Assembly: GCA_034687125.1 (NCBI GenBank)
Contig: JAQGBZ010000035.1
Location: forward strand, 124,001 to 188,000
Reading direction: 5' to 3'
From: Neelides folsomi
Taxonomy: Eukaryota > Arthropoda > Collembola > Neelipleona > Neelidae
Length of the DNA: 64,000 nucleotides
Positions 5,009 to 59,600 of this stretch are shown one piece after another. Positions within the stretch are counted from its first letter, which is position 1; each line of letters opens with the position of its first letter. The notes beneath the pieces are model-generated. The model was not told where the DNA came from, searched no databases, and was given only the letters and a program-made list of their open reading frames with translations. Both the position numbers and the translations under genes were made by a program.

Positions 5009-8000
5009 ATGCAGTTCTCGTATAGGATTGCTTTCCTCGCCGTCCTCATCTCCACCTTTCTTCTCCTTCACTTCATGAGCCGGACGAATCTCGAGGGTAA
5101 GAAATGATTGGGTTGATTATTTTGAAAAAATCATTTCCTTTGTAGCAGAGGAAGAAAAAGAATCTCGGCTCCTTCGGTTCCTGGCAACTCTCGAGACGGA
5201 CGTGAGAGAATACGAGTCATTGGTTCGTCATTTGAGAACGGAGATTCTTCAAATGAAGGACTTGCTCTTGCCGCGAGGAAAGCGGAAGAAGAAATTGACC
5301 ACTCTGAGCATTTACAACGCCTTGCCCCACCTTCTTGATTTTGAAGACCCGCTCGCCCCAGCTCTCAATATTGGGAAAAGAAGAGATGGAGGTAAATGAA
5401 AAAATGAAATTCAATTTGATAATTTTCATATTTTTCAGTCTCTATTGTGATTGGAATTCCGACGGTGAAGCGACCAACGCAGAGCTACTTGCTTCCGACT
5501 CTCCAGAATCTCATTAACTCCATGCTACCAGTAGAGAAAAACGACACTTTAATTGTCGTTTTCATCGCAGAGTCCGATCCAGTCTTTGTACAGAATACTG
5601 TTAACGCCATTACGAAACAGTAAAATTACTTTTTAGAACTATGATAAGTTTATCATTAAAAGATAGTAGATCAGTTTTTTAAATTTTAAATGGGAAGGAT
5701 TGGAACATTTTTGGAACATTGGAACATTTTTGTTTGATTTAGATTCAGGAGAGATGTCGATTCAGGGCTTGTGGAAATGTTTGCGCCTTCGTCCACATTT
5801 TATCCTGACTTTAAGAGATTGAAGGGAAGTTTGGGTGACTCCGAAGAAAGGACGAGATGGAGAACAAAGCAAAATCTGGATTATGCCTATTTAATGATGT
5901 ATGCCCAGAATCGGGGAAACTTTTACCTTCAACTTGAAGATGATGTTCTCACTAAAAAGGGCTTCGTCCAAACGATCAAGTCGTTTGCCATTCAAAACAC
6001 TATGAACAAGCAAGACTGGTTCATGTTAGACTTTTGTCAACTTGGTTTTATAGGTAAATAAAAGACGTCGGATTTAATTATTTAAATGAAATGTTATAAA
6101 ATGTTACTTATTAGAAGCTATGAAATATTGAATGGCGGGTTTTGGATTTTTCCAGGGAAGCTTTTCCGTGCATCTGACTTATGGCGGCTCATTGAATTCT
6201 TTTTACTCTTCTACGAGGACAAACCTGGCGATTGGCTCCTCTCCCAATTTTTCACCGTCAAGTATTGCAAGCTAGACTACTCACATGTAACTCCTCAATT
6301 TACATTCCTCATTTACTTCCATTTTATAAATTATCTGATTTATAAAATGACCGATTATGACCTTTCATTTCTCCATTTAGAAGCGCTGTGGAAAGGAGCT
6401 AGGTAAGCATTGGATTCACTTCCGCCCTTCACTCTTTCAACACATTGGAATGGTTTCTTCACTCAATGGGAAAGTTCAGAAACTTAAGGTAAATCAAAGT
6501 GATTTTTATTAATAATGTTTAAATCAATTATTATTTAATTCTTTTTATCATATTAGGATCGACAATTCGGGAAGCTTGAATTGTTTACTGGGCATGGAAA
6601 TCCCCAGGCCACAGTTTTCAGCACTATTAAACATTATGGAAAGTTCTCATTGGAAAAAGCTTATGTGGGGAAAAATTACTTTTGGGGCCTTGCCCCCGAA
6701 AATGGTGATATTCTCAAATTCACATTCACGCCGCCCATTTCTTTAAACAGGTTAATTCATATTTCTATTAATTCGCTCTGTGAATAAATCCCTCCTCCCT
6801 TGAGCATAAAACGCATTATGGAAAATGATAAGGAAGAGCTTTCGCTTATATTAAAAACTTAAAATTGGCCCAAGCTTTTCTTTGGCCCATACCTATATAT
6901 TTTCAGTAATGCGCTTTCAGCTCACTGGTATTCCGAGTGCGAATCTTAAAAGATAAATTTATTTATTTATAATATGAATAAAATGTAATTTTTCAAATAA
7001 AAATATAAAAACAAATTGTTTCTATTTTCCATACACTTTCCTCTTAAGAAAGTTTTAAATAAGGGACGAATAATTTTTCAACTCATTTTGCTAATGGCTT
7101 TGATTAACTTTCTAGATACCGTTTTATCAGTGGAAACGCTGAGCATCCGTCTGACAAGCTTTACAATGCTACATTAGAAGTAGAATCGGCCTTAAGTTCA
7201 ACACCTCAAACGTCGCCGTTCCTCACCACGAAGGACGGATTTTTCATAATCGGTAAATAAACAGATTTATAATTGGTGTGAGAGCTTTTGATTTCAATTC
7301 TACTCTTTTCCTTTAATGTTAGATGAATTTGATGAGCTTGGGGTGTTGGATGGCGAGGTGCCTTCTTTCCTCAACCCTATTTCAGCTGTGAGGATAACTC
7401 TCAAGCGCACGAGTGACAATTGGGTGATACTAAGTGAGGTATGTGGAGACTGGTGCTTAGGGACTGCCCATAAATGAGCTCACACTTTTTCCCGATTTTT
7501 GGACCTTTACCCCCCCTCATGTCACACTTTGTAACACTTTAGCATACCCCCACCCCCCATGTAAGCTCACACTTCGTATACGTAGTACATTTAAAAAATA
7601 TTTTAAACTATCCAGAAAAAAGCTCAGCGCTGAGTGCAGTGTAGAAAATAAGCAAATTTTGCTTATATTAAATTTCCAATAATTTCCGGATATGAAAAGT
7701 ATAAACAATTCATCACTTTGATTAGAGACAATTGTTGGAAAATGTTTAGAACACTTTGAGTTTTTCTTAAATTTTACTTTTTGCGTTAGGAAGATAAAAA
7801 TTTAATTTTTAATAGCTTTTAAATTAAAAAGTATAGAAATTTTGTGGATTTTGACCATTTTACAAATGTGAGCTCACACTTTGGCTAACCCCCATCCCCT
7901 CTATTGTAACACTTTGCCCTACCCCCCCCTCTTAGCGTAAGTTTATTTATGGACAGTCCCTTAACCAATGTCAATACTTAATTGGTTATTCTAAATTTTT

Positions 8001-12830: not shown

Positions 12831-22687
<9,857 letters not shown>

Positions 22688-23047: not shown

Positions 23048-27360
<4,313 letters not shown>

Positions 27361-30300
27361 TTAAATAGGTCTGTGTCTGGTTTTTTTATGGATTTTCGGA
27401 GTTTCCATTTCAAGCGTCTCCTCCTCATTTTCCTCCTTTTCCGGAGAGAACACAAGAGGTCGAATTGGATGAATAAGCTGCGGTTCATCGTCAGGGAATC
27501 GAGTTCCTGGAGGATACACGGGCTTCACCACCCGTCTCATCTTCTTATTCTTTGGGCTGATTGCTGGAGCTGAAATTCCGATCATTTCTGGGGTCTTCGC
27601 TTCTGGGTATTTAGGCTCGTTCTCATTCGAACACTCTTCAACGACAAGGAAAAAATTCTTTTTTCTAATTTCCATGTGTTCTTTGTACATATTGTTCATT
27701 GTGAGCTGAAGGATGATTTCTTCGAAACTTAATTTGCTGTATTTTTTATCGGAAAAACAGGCCACATCGAAGAATTGGAAAGCTTGGTGAAAAGTGGAAG
27801 TAATATGATATGTGTCATAGCCTGGAGTATTTTCCATTTGAGAATCGAGGATTTTGAGACCTGAATAAAAGAATAAAAATAAATATTTGATTTAGATGTT
27901 TAATTTAAATATTTTTCAAATAATAATTATTCTTATAATAACCAATTCTGGTGAATTTTGGTAGAAAATGTTGTTCAAAGATGATGTCACAATTTTTGAC
28001 TAGTTCTTCCGGAGTAAATTCATCCATTGTAGAATATTTGAAAATTGATTTGAGAAGCATTTTAACGTAAAAGATCTTGGCTTGCTCAAATAGAACAAGT
28101 CCTGCAAGCATTTTGCCTCCGTTTACAGCATAACGAGACTAAAAACAATAATAATAATATTTCATTATTTAATTTTTAATCGTGATTATGAATGACTACT
28201 AATGACTACCAATTGTGTTTATGTGACTTTTGGGATCTTAAAATGAATCTCCGTACATTAACTGTATAGGTCTCAATTAAGAAATCTGCCAATCTTGGAT
28301 TGAGACAAAAGAAGCACCGGCAGTGAAACGGATGAGAAAGGATTGGAGAAATTGTGAATCTCTTATTTGGGAAAGTTGGTGAACAATCTCTGGTCGCTTC
28401 ATCTTTTCCGCCTTTCATTGGATAATACGGATCAGGTAAAAAGAGAGTTTTAAGAGTCCAGCGAAGCTTATGCAGACGATTGATTATCTGTAACCAAAAC
28501 ATGTTATGGAAAATGGGTACCTATTTCAACATTTTATTATAATAATTAAACATTAATATTTATGTATGAAACTTATGGTTAGTTAATAAGATTATTGTAA
28601 ATGAACCTTAATTTCTTGGTTGGTAAATTCAAGTAGTTTAAATTCTTTTGACACGAGATCCAAAGTGCATGATTCTTGATTCCCGTAAATCGGCGCGTCC
28701 ACTTTAGTTAACATTTGAATTGCCTCGATTTTGACTTCACAACTCTCAACGGAATTGGCAAGCAAATCAATTTTTGAAAGGCGAGAGAGAATTTCCAAAG
28801 TTCTAATTAAATTAATCCTTTCAATTCTCCAAATACAAAAATGAATGCCTTGGAATAGGAATATTTGAACCATTCTTAATAATAATATAATAATATAAAA
28901 GGTCTTACCGCAAAGCAAAGCCGCTGTTTTGAAATATGCATATTAACTCTCCAAAATAGCAATTATACAAATTGCACTTCTCAGACTCTTCAATCTGATC
29001 GAGAAAATAAGGGACGAGGTTGAAAAGAGAATTGAGGAGATCACAATTGAACAAAATGTCGTGCCATCCTAATGAATAGAAAAATTGAGATGAATATTCA
29101 TATATTTAAGATAGTAAATTGTAATATAAATAAAATCTTTTTTCATTTGTCAACCTTGTTCTAAAACTTTTTCCGGATTTTGGAATACTCTCACAGAATG
29201 TGTAATATTCTTGAATGCCTTGCTCAAAAGTCCAAAAGAACTCATCGGATGGTAAAAATCTTGTACTTCGGATATGAAGTTTTTATATTTGGGATAATTC
29301 TCTTTGTATAAATGTAGAAGGACGCAGGCATCGCCAATCAAGTGGAGAATGACATCATAATTTTCCCCTTGCTTCACATAATCAAAAATGATCACCAATT
29401 CCTTCATTCCCCTTTCGTACTGTTAATGATAAAGAAAAACAATTATTAACTTTAATAATTTCATTTAACCAACAGATATCAAATAAAATTCTTTTACGTA
29501 CTTCCTTTTTCCAGTAAAAGTAATGAGCCATTGCGAGATTCCTTCTAAGTAAAATCCCTTTCGAATTTCCAGCCACTTTACTCGTAGCCAGATAATTTAA
29601 ATCATCGAAAACGTCCTTGTCGACATGATGTAAAAGACGAATAAGTTCGTAGCAGCCTTTTAAACCATACAAATTTAAAAGGGTTAAATTAAATATACAT
29701 ATTTGATCTAACAACAGATATTTATATTCAATTCACTTGTCATGATGAGATAGTTTGAAGTTGTGAGTTTTCCAATTCGACGAGCCACCGCCCATACTTT
29801 AATAATTGTTTCAAAATCTCCAACGGCGGTTGCAAGATGGGCCAAAAGTCGAATCGTAACTTCGACAAATGCAATTGATATATTGTTTATAACTAACTTC
29901 AATATGTCGTCCTTCATAATTATATTAAAATGGGTTATAATTTTTCATATTAATTATTAAGTAAAATAAAGATTAAATTCTTACATCTAATTCAAGTAAA
30001 TAAGTGAGTTCGTTGACGGCTTCAATCACTTGCTTGGAAATTCGGTAGTCGTCGTGTAAATTCAAAGATGAGACGAAGGGATAAGATTTATTTGGGTTGG
30101 GAACTTCATTGTTAAGATTTAAAGTTGGATCATTCAGCATTGCTGTAATTACTTGCGTCTTCAATTCTTCAGCTTCTTCCTAAATAAAAAATCTTATGTA
30201 AAAAAGAATTGTAAGAGTTATTTAAACTAAACATTGAAAAATTCTCACATTGACAATTATTTGGTATCTTCTCAAGTAATGAAGAGCCAACCATGTTTTG

Positions 30301-32084
30301 GCCAATGGAGTAATAAAGAATAATTCAATATCGTCCTGAAAAAATTAAGAATAAATTCCATAAAATAGTTAAAAAATATTAAAAAGTTAATTTACAGTAT
30401 TATAGGATTAAAATTGTAAATTACAAGTTAAGATAAAATTAACACAATTTACTTTTTCAACAGTTTCAATGAACGAAATCGTTCTTTTGCAGATGTTCAA
30501 TCCAATTTGACTTTCCGTATCTATTGACCACCAATAGCCAACTGCCTCGACTATATATCCCAAAACAAAATCTGAGTCCGAATTCATGAATTTCCTTATA
30601 TTTTGTCCTAGTTTAACGATGGTGTGAGGACGCACGCCCCTAAGATAAAATTCCAGTTAAGCCAAAGTAAAATTAAAGGTTAAACTACAAGAATATCTTT
30701 AAATGTTACAAATTAACATACCGACAAGCAAAGTAGGCATTGAGCTCAAATCGGCAAACTTGTTGGCACTTCAAACTTTGATCTTTCAAGTCGGGTCCAC
30801 ATTTAATGTAGTCCATCACATTCATTTGATTGGATTGGCTGTGTCTCTGGTCGGTCCATTTCAATTCCCAGGAGACACTTGTAGGGATGTCCAAGTAGTC
30901 AAAGTGCCCCAATTGAGAAATGGTATCAGTGTGGTCGTCCCAGAGAGTCTTTGACAAAAGTAATTGAGAATAGAAAGGTTCTTCGGATGACATCAGTGCT
31001 TCGACGATAAGCATTGCGATGGAACGACGTAATCGTACAATACTATCATCCAGAACTATCCCATAGCCAGACAATGATTGCTAAATTCAAAACAAATAAT
31101 TACAATTAGTATAAAGCAACTATAAACAAAATTTAAATATTATAAAATTTATATATTGTTAAATTATTTATATGGAATTGTGAGAAATTAATTTACCCGT
31201 TCCAAAGCTGTGGCAATTGCTTCCTCGAGCAATATAAATTGTTCAACGACAAATGACTTGTCATCCAGTTGAGACGCGAGGGCGTGCAATTGATTAATTT
31301 TGCCCAAAATCATTTCTGTGCTTCTCGTTCCAAGACACGAGAGCCATCGAAGGGACAAGGTCGCCAAATAGAGAGCATTGGAGGGATCGCTCTTGGTTTG
31401 ACTTTCTCGCATGTGGTTCCAAACTTGGGCATAAATGGATGAAATGGCCCGAACTAATGGACTCACGGTGGAGAAACATAAACTGTTCATTTTGATGAGA
31501 TCATAAAGAGTCTCATATTCCGTAAATTCAACGTCCGGCTGAAAAATCATTCCAATAAATGTAAATTGTTCCTTAATTATATATGCACATGTGAATGAAA
31601 TGAAATGTCGACCAATCTTATTTATCTTTCTTTAACGATTAATTAATTAAGAATCTACTAGCTTTTATATATACCTTTACTGAAGTTAGGTATCTTTTAA
31701 TCATCGTGATATGAGTGAAGGAACTTTCTATGTCGATTGGCCACAAATGAAGATTATTTGCCATAATTAAAACAATAGATTGTACAGCATTGAGTTCTTC
31801 AGGACAAAGAGCTTCTGTTTTGTTATAGAAAGCTTCAGCCATTTTTCTACCCAAATGCTTCACAAATTGCTGTTCCAATTTGTCTCTATATTTCTAAATA
31901 AAAATAAAAAATTGAAAAGTTAATGGAATTCGCAAAATCAAAATCAAAATTTAATTCATCAACCCGTCAATAATACCTCAAGTTCTTGAAAGAGTTTTTG
32001 AAATTGCTTGGCAATGATTAGAGAAAAAGCATCTGATAAATCTAATTTCTCTATAGATTTTTCCATGATTCTGCTAGTTGGCAT
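27361..32084 (-). CDS. separase N-terminal-like helical protein, Three rows type
   Basis: Fifteen coding exons in gene order: 32084-31977, 31893-31675, 31538-31197, 31080-30722, 30639-30453, 30335-30249, 30179-29985, 29911-29737, 29656-29502, 29419-29155, 29068-28909, 28874-28607, 28487-28257, 28138-27943, 27860-27361. All phases agree, giving 1148 residues, mostly predicted helical. The telling segment is LSHPFHCRCFFCLNPRL (about 890-906; cysteines 896, 898, 901), which lines up with recalled human separase LSHSPTCDCSLCASPVL; the helices that follow also align. No caspase-like protease domain follows: a stop ends the frame after a basic KKTRHRP tail. Drosophila splits separase into Three rows (about 1209 residues, no protease) and Sse, and this protein matches the former in size and content. 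It would act in releasing sister chromatids at anaphase. The exon 13 donor is GTACGG (gene 3' side at 28257), chosen for phase. Alternative: an unrelated helical-repeat protein. Confidence 0.6.
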
Positions 32085-36208: not shown

Positions 36209-39200
36209 ATGTCTGATCCTGAGCTTCCTGGGTAAGAAATACAAAAATACATAGTAAAGAATTAATATTTATTATATTTTTTATATCATAGTTATTTTAG
36301 TATATTTTACTGGTAGACATTTCATAGATTATATTTTTGGCATATTTAAATATTCAATTTGTAATTCTTTTTACCATACATATGTACCATGATATCACGT
36401 TCTTCCGAAAAATGGAAAAGGATTGAAATCTTGTTACTTGTAGGACTTTATTCAATTGTACGTTTTCTTTTGATATTGATACGTATGATGTTGAAAAACC
36501 AATTTAAATTGTAAATATTTAACATTATTAACTTATATCGATTGTTGATATGCCAGGGGAATCAAAGGCATTTGTTTTTGGTTAGAAGAAAGTTCCAATA
36601 TTCTCCCCTTTTCCTCGTGATGTATCAAATCATATTATTAATATGGTAGTATATATGTATGGTACGTGGTTGTAGCGGATTAAGATTGGAAGATCTCTGC
36701 ATACGTAATAGTTGTATTTGAAGAGAGGTGTGTGGATGGGAGGATTGGGGTGTTGCCCGGTGAAGTTGGAGTTCCTCGAATGGGATGTGAGGGGAGGGTC
36801 TTCTTTATTAATCCAATGGCTCCAACGGGTCAATCGGCCTTTTCTAAGGTCTCTTCGACATTTAATTAACTTCCTCCCCTCGTCTTCCGTTTCTTCACTC
36901 CCTTTCCTATTGAAATCCGAGAACTTCCGAAGACCCACAAACACCACGTTTATAATTGACTAGAAAGACATAAATATCCCTTTTATTGCTAGCTCTTTCT
37001 AATGATTTTACAACAAATGTACCTATCCTACGTATTTACGTATCTCTATTAGATTTACATATTACCTAGATATACATAATATGTATATACAATATTAGAA
37101 TGTTAGATCACTTTCTCTATGTACCAATATTTATAAAATGCATATATAAGTAACCAAAAAAATCATATGGATATTTAGATGATGCTCTAGATGTCTTCAA
37201 TTCTGTTCCGAGGCGTGATTCAACTCTTCTTGGTAGATTGTTAAATACAGTTAGTAACATCGCTGGAGTTAAAGAAGAATGGAATTTTTATACTAGCTAC
37301 AGAATTGAAGACATTTAGAGCTTCTTGATTTTTTTCTTTCGCTCATTTTCTTTTCTATCGGCTGAAGAAAAAATAATTTAGCGATAATGATCCAATAAAT
37401 GACCCAACCCTTACTAGTATCTGTATATACAGTTACAATTTATTTCTAATCGTTTCTTAAATCTTACCTTTACTGCATCCGTATCTTTCACACATATGTA
37501 ATATGCTTAGTATTTATACTATATAGGTAGTATGGGTAAAATATGACAATATGTGAAAAACAACTAATTGTAAATGTAACTTTCGCAATTGAACGATTCT
37601 TTACAATTTTATTCAAACTCATTTTGTGTGCAAAAAAGCAAAAACTCATTGGAATATAAATACTTTTCTTATTCAATATCTAATTCATGGTTTAACTGGG
37701 TTTGTTCAAAGAAATATCTGTTTAGATTTTTTTACCTGCACAAAAGACATGTACGTCACACTTTGAACCACAAGAGGTAATTTTTATGTAGAATGTATTT
37801 AACTATAATATATAATTATATTACATATAGTATCCTATGTTATACCTATAGTATTATAAAAAGTAAAGCACCTACATTATTGGTGCTTTACTTTCATACC
37901 TAAATAAGAATCTTTGATTTAAGAATTCAGGTATAATATTACAATATTAGTAGAGTATAGTGTATATTAATAGGATATACACTATACTAATACACTATGT
38001 ATACTAAAATGCATTACACCATTTGATAGTCAAATCATACATACATACTTATACAATAATTAATTTTAATAAAATCGTTCACTAAATACAACGGAAACTG
38101 TTTAATGTTCACATTTGTTTGATCAGAGTTGGGACAAGATTATTATATATATGAGTTTAATTGTAATAAGGAATTAAAAGGAAATGTGAACATTATTTTG
38201 TTAGCATGCATTACATTGTGACAATGCGCAGGGATTTCGCTGAAATGGAGATGGATTCTCTTTTTACTCCCTCGAGTCCCATTTGGGCGTGCGGAGATGT
38301 AAAGTCTCCGCTTTTGGAAGAAATGTTCAGCTCGAATCCAACGGTTGGGACATTGGGGCTTTCTCCATTTGATCTCGAAGCCCAAAGGTAACGCAAACCC
38401 AAATCTCCCTTTCACCCCATTTCCCTCTTTGATTCAGAGAACTCAAAGCTGAAGCATTCAAGACGTCTCCCCAACTTGAAGGGTCTTTTGGGTCCGATTG
38501 CGAAATCTCTCCAATGCCCTTCACTGGCACTTACCCTCACTGTCAATCACAACAGGTAAACTTGGCAATTTTGAACATTTCCCCGTTACTTTTTCAAGTG
38601 AATGTGGTTTTATAGTTTTTCTCTCAAAACTGCTACTCGCCTAATTATGGGCTCGATTCTCCCTTCGTGGCTCCTGGGAACTGCGGGTCTTCGGCTCACA
38701 CCTTGAGTCACTCCACATTCCCATCCATGAGTGTCAATGTGTCAATGAACATGACAATGGGTTATTTGGCAGCCGACTCAGGTCAAGTTTCTCCACAGAG
38801 CTCCTCGAACCACGCGAGGAATTTCAACTGTTGCGTGGGCCATTGGCCGAGTCATTCCGGTCATCATCAGGGGAATTGTTCTTATGGGCCTTCTACCCCA
38901 CCTCCCAACTTTCCTCATCAGCCCTACAGCACCACATACAGTTTTGCAGCAGATTTCCGTTCAGAACCTACTTTAGAAACTATTCGATCACAATGGATTC
39001 CGTCTCTTCATGGCGCCGCGACAACTTCGCCAAACTCACGTTCATATTGTCAATCCAAAAGAAAATGGCCAGGTTAGTTTTGAAAAGAGCCATAATTATA
39101 TTATTAGAATTACTCTATATATTTTCATTATGAGTTAACTGTCATAAACGAACGTATCTATTATTTAGTACGTGAGTTTTCAAAATGGTAAACTCGATCA

Positions 39201-39724
39201 TAGGCTTGAATTTAATTTTGAAATGTTTACAATAAGTATAATTGCGGAATTGTATCCAAGGGTCGGTGGAGTTGGAAAGCGAGCGGGGAGATCCAAAGGA
39301 GAATCTTTGTCGGATTTGTGGGAAGAGCTACGCTCGTCCTTCGACTCTTAAAACCCATCTCCGGACCCATTCGGGTGAGAAGCCATTTCGTTGCATGGAG
39401 TGCCAGAAGTCATTTAGCCAAGCTGCAAACTTGACCGCTCACGTGAGGACGCATTCGGGAGAAAAGCCGTTTGGATGTCCGATCTGCGACAGGAGGTTTT
39501 CCCAATCCTCTTCTGTAACAACGCACATGCGAACTCATTCAGGGGAACGGCCTTACCGGTGCAGGTTATGTAAGAAGGCGTTTTCAGACTCCTCCACCCT
39601 CACCAAGCACCTCCGCATCCACTCAGGAGAGAAGCCCTATGAATGCAAACTCTGTCTTCTCCGATTCTCCCAGTCGGGAAACCTCAACCGACACATGAGA
39701 GTTCACTCCGGGACCAACCAATGA
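36209..39724 (+). CDS. gl: Glass, five-C2H2-zinc-finger transcription factor of photoreceptor development
   Basis: Five coding exons: 36209-36231, 38232-38387, 38438-38555, 38616-39072, 39261-39724, giving 405 residues. The last exon encodes five C2H2 fingers about 28 residues apart (about 268-400) with TGEKP-like linkers (HSGEKPF). [36 protein letters not shown] and [18 protein letters not shown] are nearly identical to Drosophila Glass fingers. The N-terminal part is low complexity and serine/proline-rich, as in the fly protein (about 600 residues). Exon 1 is only 23 nt (MSDPELP plus two bases) and joins in phase across a 2-kb intron to [16 protein letters not shown]; its donor GG|gtaaga is strong. 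By family it binds DNA and drives photoreceptor differentiation and opsin expression. An ATG inside exon 2 (38206 frame or MEMDSLF) is an alternative start. Confidence 0.93.
36650..36965. promoter_or_regulatory. candidate cis-regulatory island in glass intron 1
   Basis: About 300 bp of mixed-composition DNA stands out in the AT-rich 2-kb first intron of glass. It has open frames on both strands but no recognisable protein and no good splice context. It contains GGATTA and TTAATCC, which match the K50 homeodomain (Otx-type) site. The regulatory reading is inference from composition and position only. Confidence 0.3.
37183..37321. repeat. inverted repeat, 23-bp arms
   Basis: A 23-bp arm at 37183-37205 (containing ATGTCTTCAATTCTGT) is matched with one mismatch by the reverse complement at 37299-37321. 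The 93-bp interior is not strongly paired. It lies in glass intron 1 and may be a small MITE or a structured RNA element. Confidence 0.55.
37861..37893. repeat. perfect hairpin, 12-bp arms
   Basis: AAGTAAAGCACC (37861-37872), loop TACATTATT, then the exact reverse complement (37882-37893). It sits in glass intron 1. Confidence 0.6.
37954..37988. repeat. perfect hairpin, 14-bp arms
   Basis: AGTATAGTGTATAT (37954-37967), loop TAATAGG, then the exact reverse complement (37975-37988). It lies 60 bp after another perfect hairpin in glass intron 1. Confidence 0.6.
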
Positions 39725-56600: not shown

Positions 56601-59600
56601 CGTTACCATTATCGCCCCACACCTCACTATCGCCCAATTTACGGACCCCTCGTCAGCACTCCGGTTTCCCGCCGCGGCCCCCGCCGCCGCCCCATTTAAC
56701 AAATTGTTTCTCCTCATTTAATTAGCCCGCGTCTCGGCCTGCCAAACCTCCCCGTGAAAACATTGATTTTAATCTCCAGAATTGAGCGAATGGGGATAAT
56801 TGGGGCTGTTTCGAAATAATTGGCTTCCTCGACTCGACAATTTAATTAGCTAAGTAGGACCGACGGAATCTTACAATAATCCAAAACTCCTCTTCTGCAT
56901 TTGTTAATTTCTTATGTCTAATCACCAATAAGCCCTACTCTAATCAGGAAGGAAAACAAGGGGAGATTTGTTCAAGGAGGGAAAGGACAACTCTCGGGGC
57001 ACCCAGAAGTCGAACCCAATCTTGGTTAATGAGGAGAAAGGAACTTACCCTTCAATCCTCGATCTTCCTCCTTTTCATTATTATTGTCGCACATTCCGCT
57101 GAGGATATCTGGAAGATAATGGAATTAGGTAGGAACAAAGGCACCCCGTAGATCAAAAATCTCTTTAAATCAACCTCTGTGAGTGAGCGATCATAAATAA
57201 GCCCCACATATAAATATCCCACATCTCTTCCCGCTTCCGGCCGCTCTCTTTTCCATGGGCCTTTTACGCTGAGAGGAACACGCGAAAACTCATCCTTCCG
57301 AAACCCTCTTCATCTCCAATTATCCTCATTTGACAATGTCACGAAACCCCCGTCGCGGGCTCCATTTCCAATTCGCCAGGAAGCCGGTGTGTGAGGGAGT
57401 CGGACCGTGAATAAAGAACAACCCAAACCTCCACCACACCACTCAACGCGGAGAAAACTCCTTTTATTTTACCCAAACTGAGAGACAATAAACGTGTCGG
57501 CTTAAATACACTCCACCATAGAACAAATCTCAAAAATCCCCCTTTCATAGGAGACAGTTGAATTCAAACAAAAGAACATTTATTCAACCTTGGCATGCAA
57601 CTAGGAATATTTACAAAGAATTCCCTCAATATTCCTTTTATTGTACCTATAGCTAAGTATATGTTTTGGCTTATCATGACCAACTCACTCATTTGCTTAT
57701 TTCCAATCTCCACAACTATTTTGTGTAATAATTAGTAGTAATATCATAAGTATTGTATTAATTAATTACAAGTATTTGGAAGTGTTGAAAGGATTCTTAC
57801 CATGACTGTTGATGAAATTGGCCAAGTAAAGATCCAGTTCTCGGACGGATACGTTTATGTGGTACGGGTTGACGCAAAGGCCAGGATGGAGACATTCAGG
57901 CGACTTTTCTAACCTTTCTCCATCCGTACTTTCTAAAGGTATCGCTTTGAACAATATGACCATCACGAGGTCCAGCCGCCATACCTGGAATCAACACATC
58001 GGGATGGATACGTGTGAGCAGAGGGTGGTAATTGGAGGGTCCGAGGGAGGGAGAGAGGACGTGATGAGAAAGTGGGAGCGTGTCGAAAGACGTTTCTGCC
58101 TTTTATTCATACGCTCTTCTAGATGAAGTAGCAGGGGGAATTAGGTAAATAAGCCTTTGAGCTCCCGTAAGGAGTTGTTTCAAGGGAGCGGGAGATGAAT
58201 CACTGCATTGCTTTGTTCCGGCTAACTTGAGAGAACATAAAGATGCTCCATGTCAGAGGGAGATGAATTCTCCGTTTACGAGGCGAAGCATAAAGAGCTC
58301 TCAGCCTCACGAGGTGATTTTGACTCTCAACTCAATCGTAAGAATGACATAATACCCTACTCTAAGAGAATAAATGACTGAAGACGAGCCCCCCGAGTTT
58401 TCCACATTTCCATTGGAATCACAAATACTGTCGTCCGAATTCAGGGCTTTTCGCATGCAGGCAGCTAGGTCAGCACTCCTCGGCGCCATAAGCAGAGACT
58501 CTCCGTCTCGGGAGGAAAAAAAGAACAGCAACGGAGTGAAATGAGCGTGAATTTTTTGCAATCCTCTCCACCCTATACCCTCCGAGTATAAGTAGGCATT
58601 CATGGAATGTGAGCGGCTTAACTCCGCCTCGGAGTCGGTCCGAGGGCTTCTAACAAAATTAAGAGATTGGGCTGTGGGCGAGTGGGCCATGGCCGGCGTC
58701 TCGCCCGGAAAGGGCGGAGAGGTGAGAGGGGAAGCTCACCTTGTCCGCTTGTCGGAGACAGTCGATCCGTCTCATCTTCCCCTTTTGATCGGGGTTGGAG
58801 AGGACACACATGGCGGGCTTCTTCCCGGTAATGGAGAGAACGAAATCTTCCCGACACTCTTGGGTGATGTCTTTTCGGAGTTTGCCGAGGAGCCTCGACG
58901 CCCACTTCTGCTTCACTTCCACCTTCTCATTCTGTAAAGGAGAGAAAAGAGGGTGAGTTACGGCTTTCGGACTAATGAACGCGGGAATGATGATCTATCG
59001 GAGCCATTGGCCATTGTGGTGGCACGGAGATAAAGGCCTATAACAATAATGAGGAGCTTCTCCATGGCTTCCTTCAAATTGCATTTTAATTACGGGCCCA
59101 ATCCAGTTTTTCACATCTCAACGACTCGGGCGGTGAATGGAGGCTCCAGCCGAGTTTATTGAGAGCCTTTTGAGACCAGAGACCGGGATATTGGGGGCGA
59201 ATAAAGGATTCATGAACGGAAGATGGGCGGCACGGGTGCTGGTGCTGTTCCTGACAGGCCATTTTTTACCATTTCTCTCCTACAATTATCGGTTGGGAAG
59301 AAGTTGGGCCCTTATTGAAATATCCTCAAGACGTTAATCATGGGACAAAGGGGGCGATAATTCCGCGCGTGAATGAGGTTCCGGTGGGGCGGGGAGGGAA
59401 TGAGATCGAGCCCAATGACTTTGGTCACCGAGAGGCGTGTCAATGGTCCGATTCTCGGGCAATTGGTGCTGATTAAGGTAGGGAGTTGAGGTGATTTACG
59501 GACTCTCCAAATTCCCCACTCAGCTACATTAGCCTCTCTCGGGGTCGGTTCGGTGGGGAATCCCTCCTCATTCTCATTCCGGTGGCTGTCAGACCTTTGT

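Follow-up and report, generated by a model that had tools for sequence, protein, structure and literature searches.

Results

The minus strand of a 64-kb stretch of the collembolan Neelides folsomi (64,000 nucleotides (nt); positions 124,001 to 188,000 of the forward strand of contig JAQGBZ010000035.1, assembly GCA_034687125.1; the whole stretch is called the window here) carries a gene whose product resembles the regulatory part of separase, which releases sister chromosomes from one another when cells divide. A sequence-only reading had described this gene as 15 exons encoding 1148 amino acids (aa), and when we rebuilt the model from the sequence we obtained the same exon number and length, with the joined exons giving 1148 codons and a stop. 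All 14 introns follow the GT-AG rule, and 13 of them measure 69-136 nt, the remaining one being intron 11, which is 34 nt in the model. The GC content is 0.38 in exons vs 0.19 in introns, and the coding frame of the joined exons contains its terminal stop only, vs 61 and 80 stops in the two alternative frames. The open frame, the GC contrast between exons and introns and the GT-AG introns show that, in outline, the model describes a genuine gene. The exact length of the protein is not settled, since introns 8 and 11 allow alternatives. Intron 11 of the 1148-aa model was placed by hand, and from the same donor (28908) it could also be 82, 91, 106 or 166 nt long; the 106-nt version (28908-28803) fits equally well and removes 24 residues to give a protein of 1124 aa. 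Alternatives also exist for intron 8, the acceptor of which is weak. Neither set of alternatives affects the Cys motif or the C-terminal tail described below.

The feature that points to separase is a Cys motif in exon 13. The pattern LSHxxxCxCxxCxxPxL that had been recognized in the sequence-only reading is indeed present at aa 890-906, where it reads LSHPFHCRCFFCLNPRL; the human separase counterpart is LSHSPTCDCSLCASPVL, and the pattern is identical in the two. According to the relevant passages of Melesse, Bembenek and Zhulin 2018 (PMC5921967), no feature of the regulatory domain of metazoan separases is more strongly conserved than CxCxxC together with a His 4-6 residues earlier, and in the present protein the His lies 4 residues ahead of the first Cys (aa 892-901). 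From residue composition, HxxxCxCxxC alone would be expected by chance in such a protein ~3e-4 times and LSHxxxCxCxxCxxPxL ~1e-8 times, the latter figure applying to a longer pattern that was picked after it had been seen. Among viral contigs, three stretches fit a peptide pattern and none proved to be a relative.

Comparison with human separase (numbered as in the PDB 7nj1 chain) yielded an ungapped local alignment of ~60 residues around the motif when residues 1105-1278 were used as the query. With BLOSUM62 the score was 57 (shuffle mean 34.9, maximum 54) and with BLOSUM45 it was 87 (shuffle mean 46.4, maximum 75), so that in neither case did any of 300 shuffles reach the observed score. A single-sequence hhalign comparison of the motif block scored 29.6 (E 0.003), the best of 60 shuffles scoring 25.6. 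Judged by these alignments, the likeness of the motif block to human separase exceeds chance. Outside the motif block no similarity was found by Pfam-A search, phmmer against PDB, local alignment or hhalign.

As had been claimed, the gene reaches its stop without the C50 caspase-like domain with its catalytic His and Cys; its last residues form a charged tail. The protease half was sought on both strands of the window, in 2727 pieces that run from stop to stop and are 15 aa or longer. Searching these with the C-terminal 558 residues of human separase revealed no C50 similarity (a single phmmer match at E 18, and no tblastn match below E 0.9), and a 94-residue block around the human active site gave nothing below E 0.65 in the window. 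A continuation into protease exons, which the sequence-only reading had named among the outcomes that would contradict it, was looked for in the window and is rejected for that stretch. The final 48 residues (aa 1101-1148) are 40% charged and 23% hydrophobic, and the tail is probably a disordered linker cut short, as its composition would predict; we infer that it ends where single-gene separases continue to linker and protease. In a non-overlapping scan of the 1148-aa model, five sites match the separase consensus [E/D]xxR, starting at aa 36, 477, 561, 609 and 870, and none lies in the C-terminal tail.

Coordinates of the gene and of its neighbours are collected in Table 1. The Furry gene, assigned from Pfam matches over six open pieces, adjoins the protein-kinase piece in convergent orientation. 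In its N-terminus this kinase resembles NDR/Tricornered, the kinase partner of Furry in flies, so that two pathway partners would stand side by side. The array of five zinc fingers resembles that of the Glass transcription factor, and an open piece ahead of it may be the N-terminal part of the same zinc-finger protein. The piece with an MH1 match resembles the DNA-binding domain of Nuclear Factor I. An Rfam search gave no match; the neighbouring proteins as a group point to an animal, with the Glass-like array, Furry and the NDR-like kinase suggestive of an arthropod.

Table 1 Features of the separase-like locus and of its neighbours in the window.
Feature	Position	Strand	Remarks
Separase regulatory-domain protein gene	32084..27361	-	15 exons, 1148 aa in present model
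Exons 1-5	32084-31977, 31893-31675, 31538-31197, 31080-30722, 30639-30453	-	
Exons 6-10	30335-30249, 30179-29985, 29911-29737, 29656-29502, 29419-29155	-	
Exons 11-15	29068-28909, 28874-28607, 28487-28257, 28138-27943, 27860-27361	-	
Intron 11 as modelled	28875..28908	-	34 nt, shorter than every other intron of the gene
HxxxCxCxxC motif (HPFHCRCFFC)	28305..28334	-	aa 892-901, exon 13
Charged C-terminal tail, probably disordered	27364..27507	-	aa 1101-1148; from composition
Protein-kinase open piece	23727..24962	-	Pfam PF00069 E 6e-56; ~2.4 kb past the separase-like stop
Furry gene	13267-21958	+	Pfam MOR2-PAG1 N, mid and C, and Fry_C over six open pieces
MGAT4-type N-acetylglucosaminyltransferase pieces	5738-6403	+	Pfam MGAT4_cons E 2e-39 and 2e-14
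Open piece, possible N-terminal part of zinc-finger protein	38616-39074		No Pfam match
Five arrayed C2H2 zinc fingers	39242-39721	+	
Open piece with MH1 match	57769-57990	-	Pfam MH1 E 9e-6

Discussion

The most reasonable explanation of this locus, and one that we consider probable, is a two-gene separase in which the present product is the N-terminal regulatory subunit, presumably an alpha-solenoid. What lies directly in hand is an open 15-exon gene, a block around the Cys motif and an absence of protease similarity in the window. Several results weigh against such an assignment. Searches with the whole 1148-aa protein found no family in Pfam-A and, with phmmer up to E 10, no match among PDB chains, human and worm separase included. 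Human separase 720-1066 showed no similarity to the protein (z 0.2 and -0.6; hhalign E 0.68), and a longer human query joining 720 to 1278, which contains a provisional linker, scored 62 with BLOSUM62 vs a shuffle maximum of 64, and 87 with BLOSUM45 vs a shuffle maximum of 80 (n=300 in each case). Melesse et al. (PMC5921967), in the part of their paper that deals with conserved positions, list further universal residues, W93/W754, L158/L827, W584/W1294 and R685/R1629 (worm/human). The late tryptophan of this set (W584 in worm, W1294 in human) is absent or replaced, there being no W past residue 850, and the placement of the early one (W93/W754) is ambiguous, with W606 outscoring W539. We infer that the tryptophan results weaken the separase reading and do not break it.

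Three other explanations have to be considered. The first is an ordinary one-gene separase: either its protease exons were displaced, through an assembly join or because the locus was recently rearranged, or they sit past a very long intron. We regard this as unlikely, as the last exon stops after the charged tail, neither strand of the window shows C50 similarity, and the kinase piece lies on the same strand ~2.4 kb downstream, so a transcript running into protease exons would have to cross another gene.

Alternatively, the protein could consist of helical repeats and have no relationship to separase, its CxCxxC knuckle being a coincidence, an idea to which the missing Pfam and PDB sequence matches, the confinement of similarity to ~60 residues, and the chance presence of CxCxxC in three further open pieces of the window all lend some weight. 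Set against these are the small chance expectation for a 17-residue pattern with eight fixed letters, albeit one chosen post hoc, and the alignment around the motif, which beats 300/300 shuffles with both matrices, and we think a coincidence quite improbable. Very improbable indeed is a truncated separase paralogue (decoy or decaying) with a full-length separase elsewhere, for which there is nothing positive in favour, while the joined 15 exons are open to the end and the arthropods covered in the pertinent passages of PMC5921967 are described with split genes, not with such paralogues.

The two-gene reading agrees with what has been reported for other arthropods. In Drosophila, separase consists of two gene products, the protease SSE and Three rows (THR), complexed with PIM (PMC4847790, PMC7529252, PMC4626109, in the passages concerned). 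For some arthropods besides Drosophila, Melesse et al. 2018 (PMC5921967) likewise report a two-gene separase, with an N-terminal protein that keeps the Cys motif across Crustacea, Merostomata, Scorpiones and all major insect families. By analogy, this published pattern would favour a two-gene arrangement here; such an arrangement would match that of the non-fly arthropod proteins as PMC5921967 describes them. Elsewhere, in the sections bearing on separase, a separase homologue is listed for Daphnia pulex (PMC2680839) and one separase gene for Tetranychus urticae (PMC3407033). Our literature search found no paper combining separase, three rows and arthropod, and among the matches it listed there was none on copepod separase.

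Likeness to Three rows is a separate matter. As in Drosophila THR, the regulatory half of the present separase would be encoded apart from the protease, and the description of the gene as Three rows-like in the sequence-only reading holds by role. Fly Three rows, at about 1209 residues, is also similar in length. By sequence the description does not clearly hold: the passages on flies in PMC5921967 give the Cys motif as absent from brachyceran flies and THR as without evidence of homology to the separase N-terminus, whereas other authors, in the statements at hand, treat THR as homologous to, or split from, that N-terminus (PMC4626109, PMC4847790, both citing Jager et al. 2004). The present protein has the motif block that THR lacks according to PMC5921967, the two being compared by description only. 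With human separase (PDB 7nj1 and others) it shares LSHxxxCxCxxCxxPxL, around which the two align gap-free over ~60 residues, though human separase continues to the C50 protease and the present protein stops. Because Melesse et al., in those same passages, find no homology between THR and separase, the present protein appears to be closer to canonical separase than to Three rows.

The most likely mechanism for such a subunit, including its fold, partner gene, complex and control, can be proposed by analogy with Drosophila and with single-gene separases. In Drosophila, SSE-THR is inhibited by PIM until anaphase. The product of the present gene would form an alpha-solenoid, wrap around the protease and bind securin; the protease, a C50 caspase-like domain, would reside on a separate short protein encoded elsewhere in the genome. 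The two halves may form a complex that is held inactive by securin until anaphase, as SSE-THR-PIM is, and that on release at anaphase would cut cohesin. The break between the two genes probably falls in the disordered linker joining solenoid and protease, and we propose that both halves could still fold because of this position.

In all likelihood the locus adds a further case to the known two-gene arrangement. The sequence-only reading had suggested that the gene split is older than flies or has happened more than once; what Melesse et al. had published on crustaceans, other arthropods and insects (PMC5921967, in its arthropod passages) implies as much, so the idea is not new, and as stated it is unsupported. 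It is quite improbable that the species lies outside the reported split groups or among single-gene relatives, a placement that would imply independent, repeated cuts at the same solenoid-protease linker. The evolutionary weight of the gene is thus that of one example added to a published pattern. For the biology of separase, a stand-alone subunit with a canonical Cys motif would model the regulation of human separase better than the diverged fly THR does, and it would provide a natural case in which the regulatory and catalytic halves are expressible apart.
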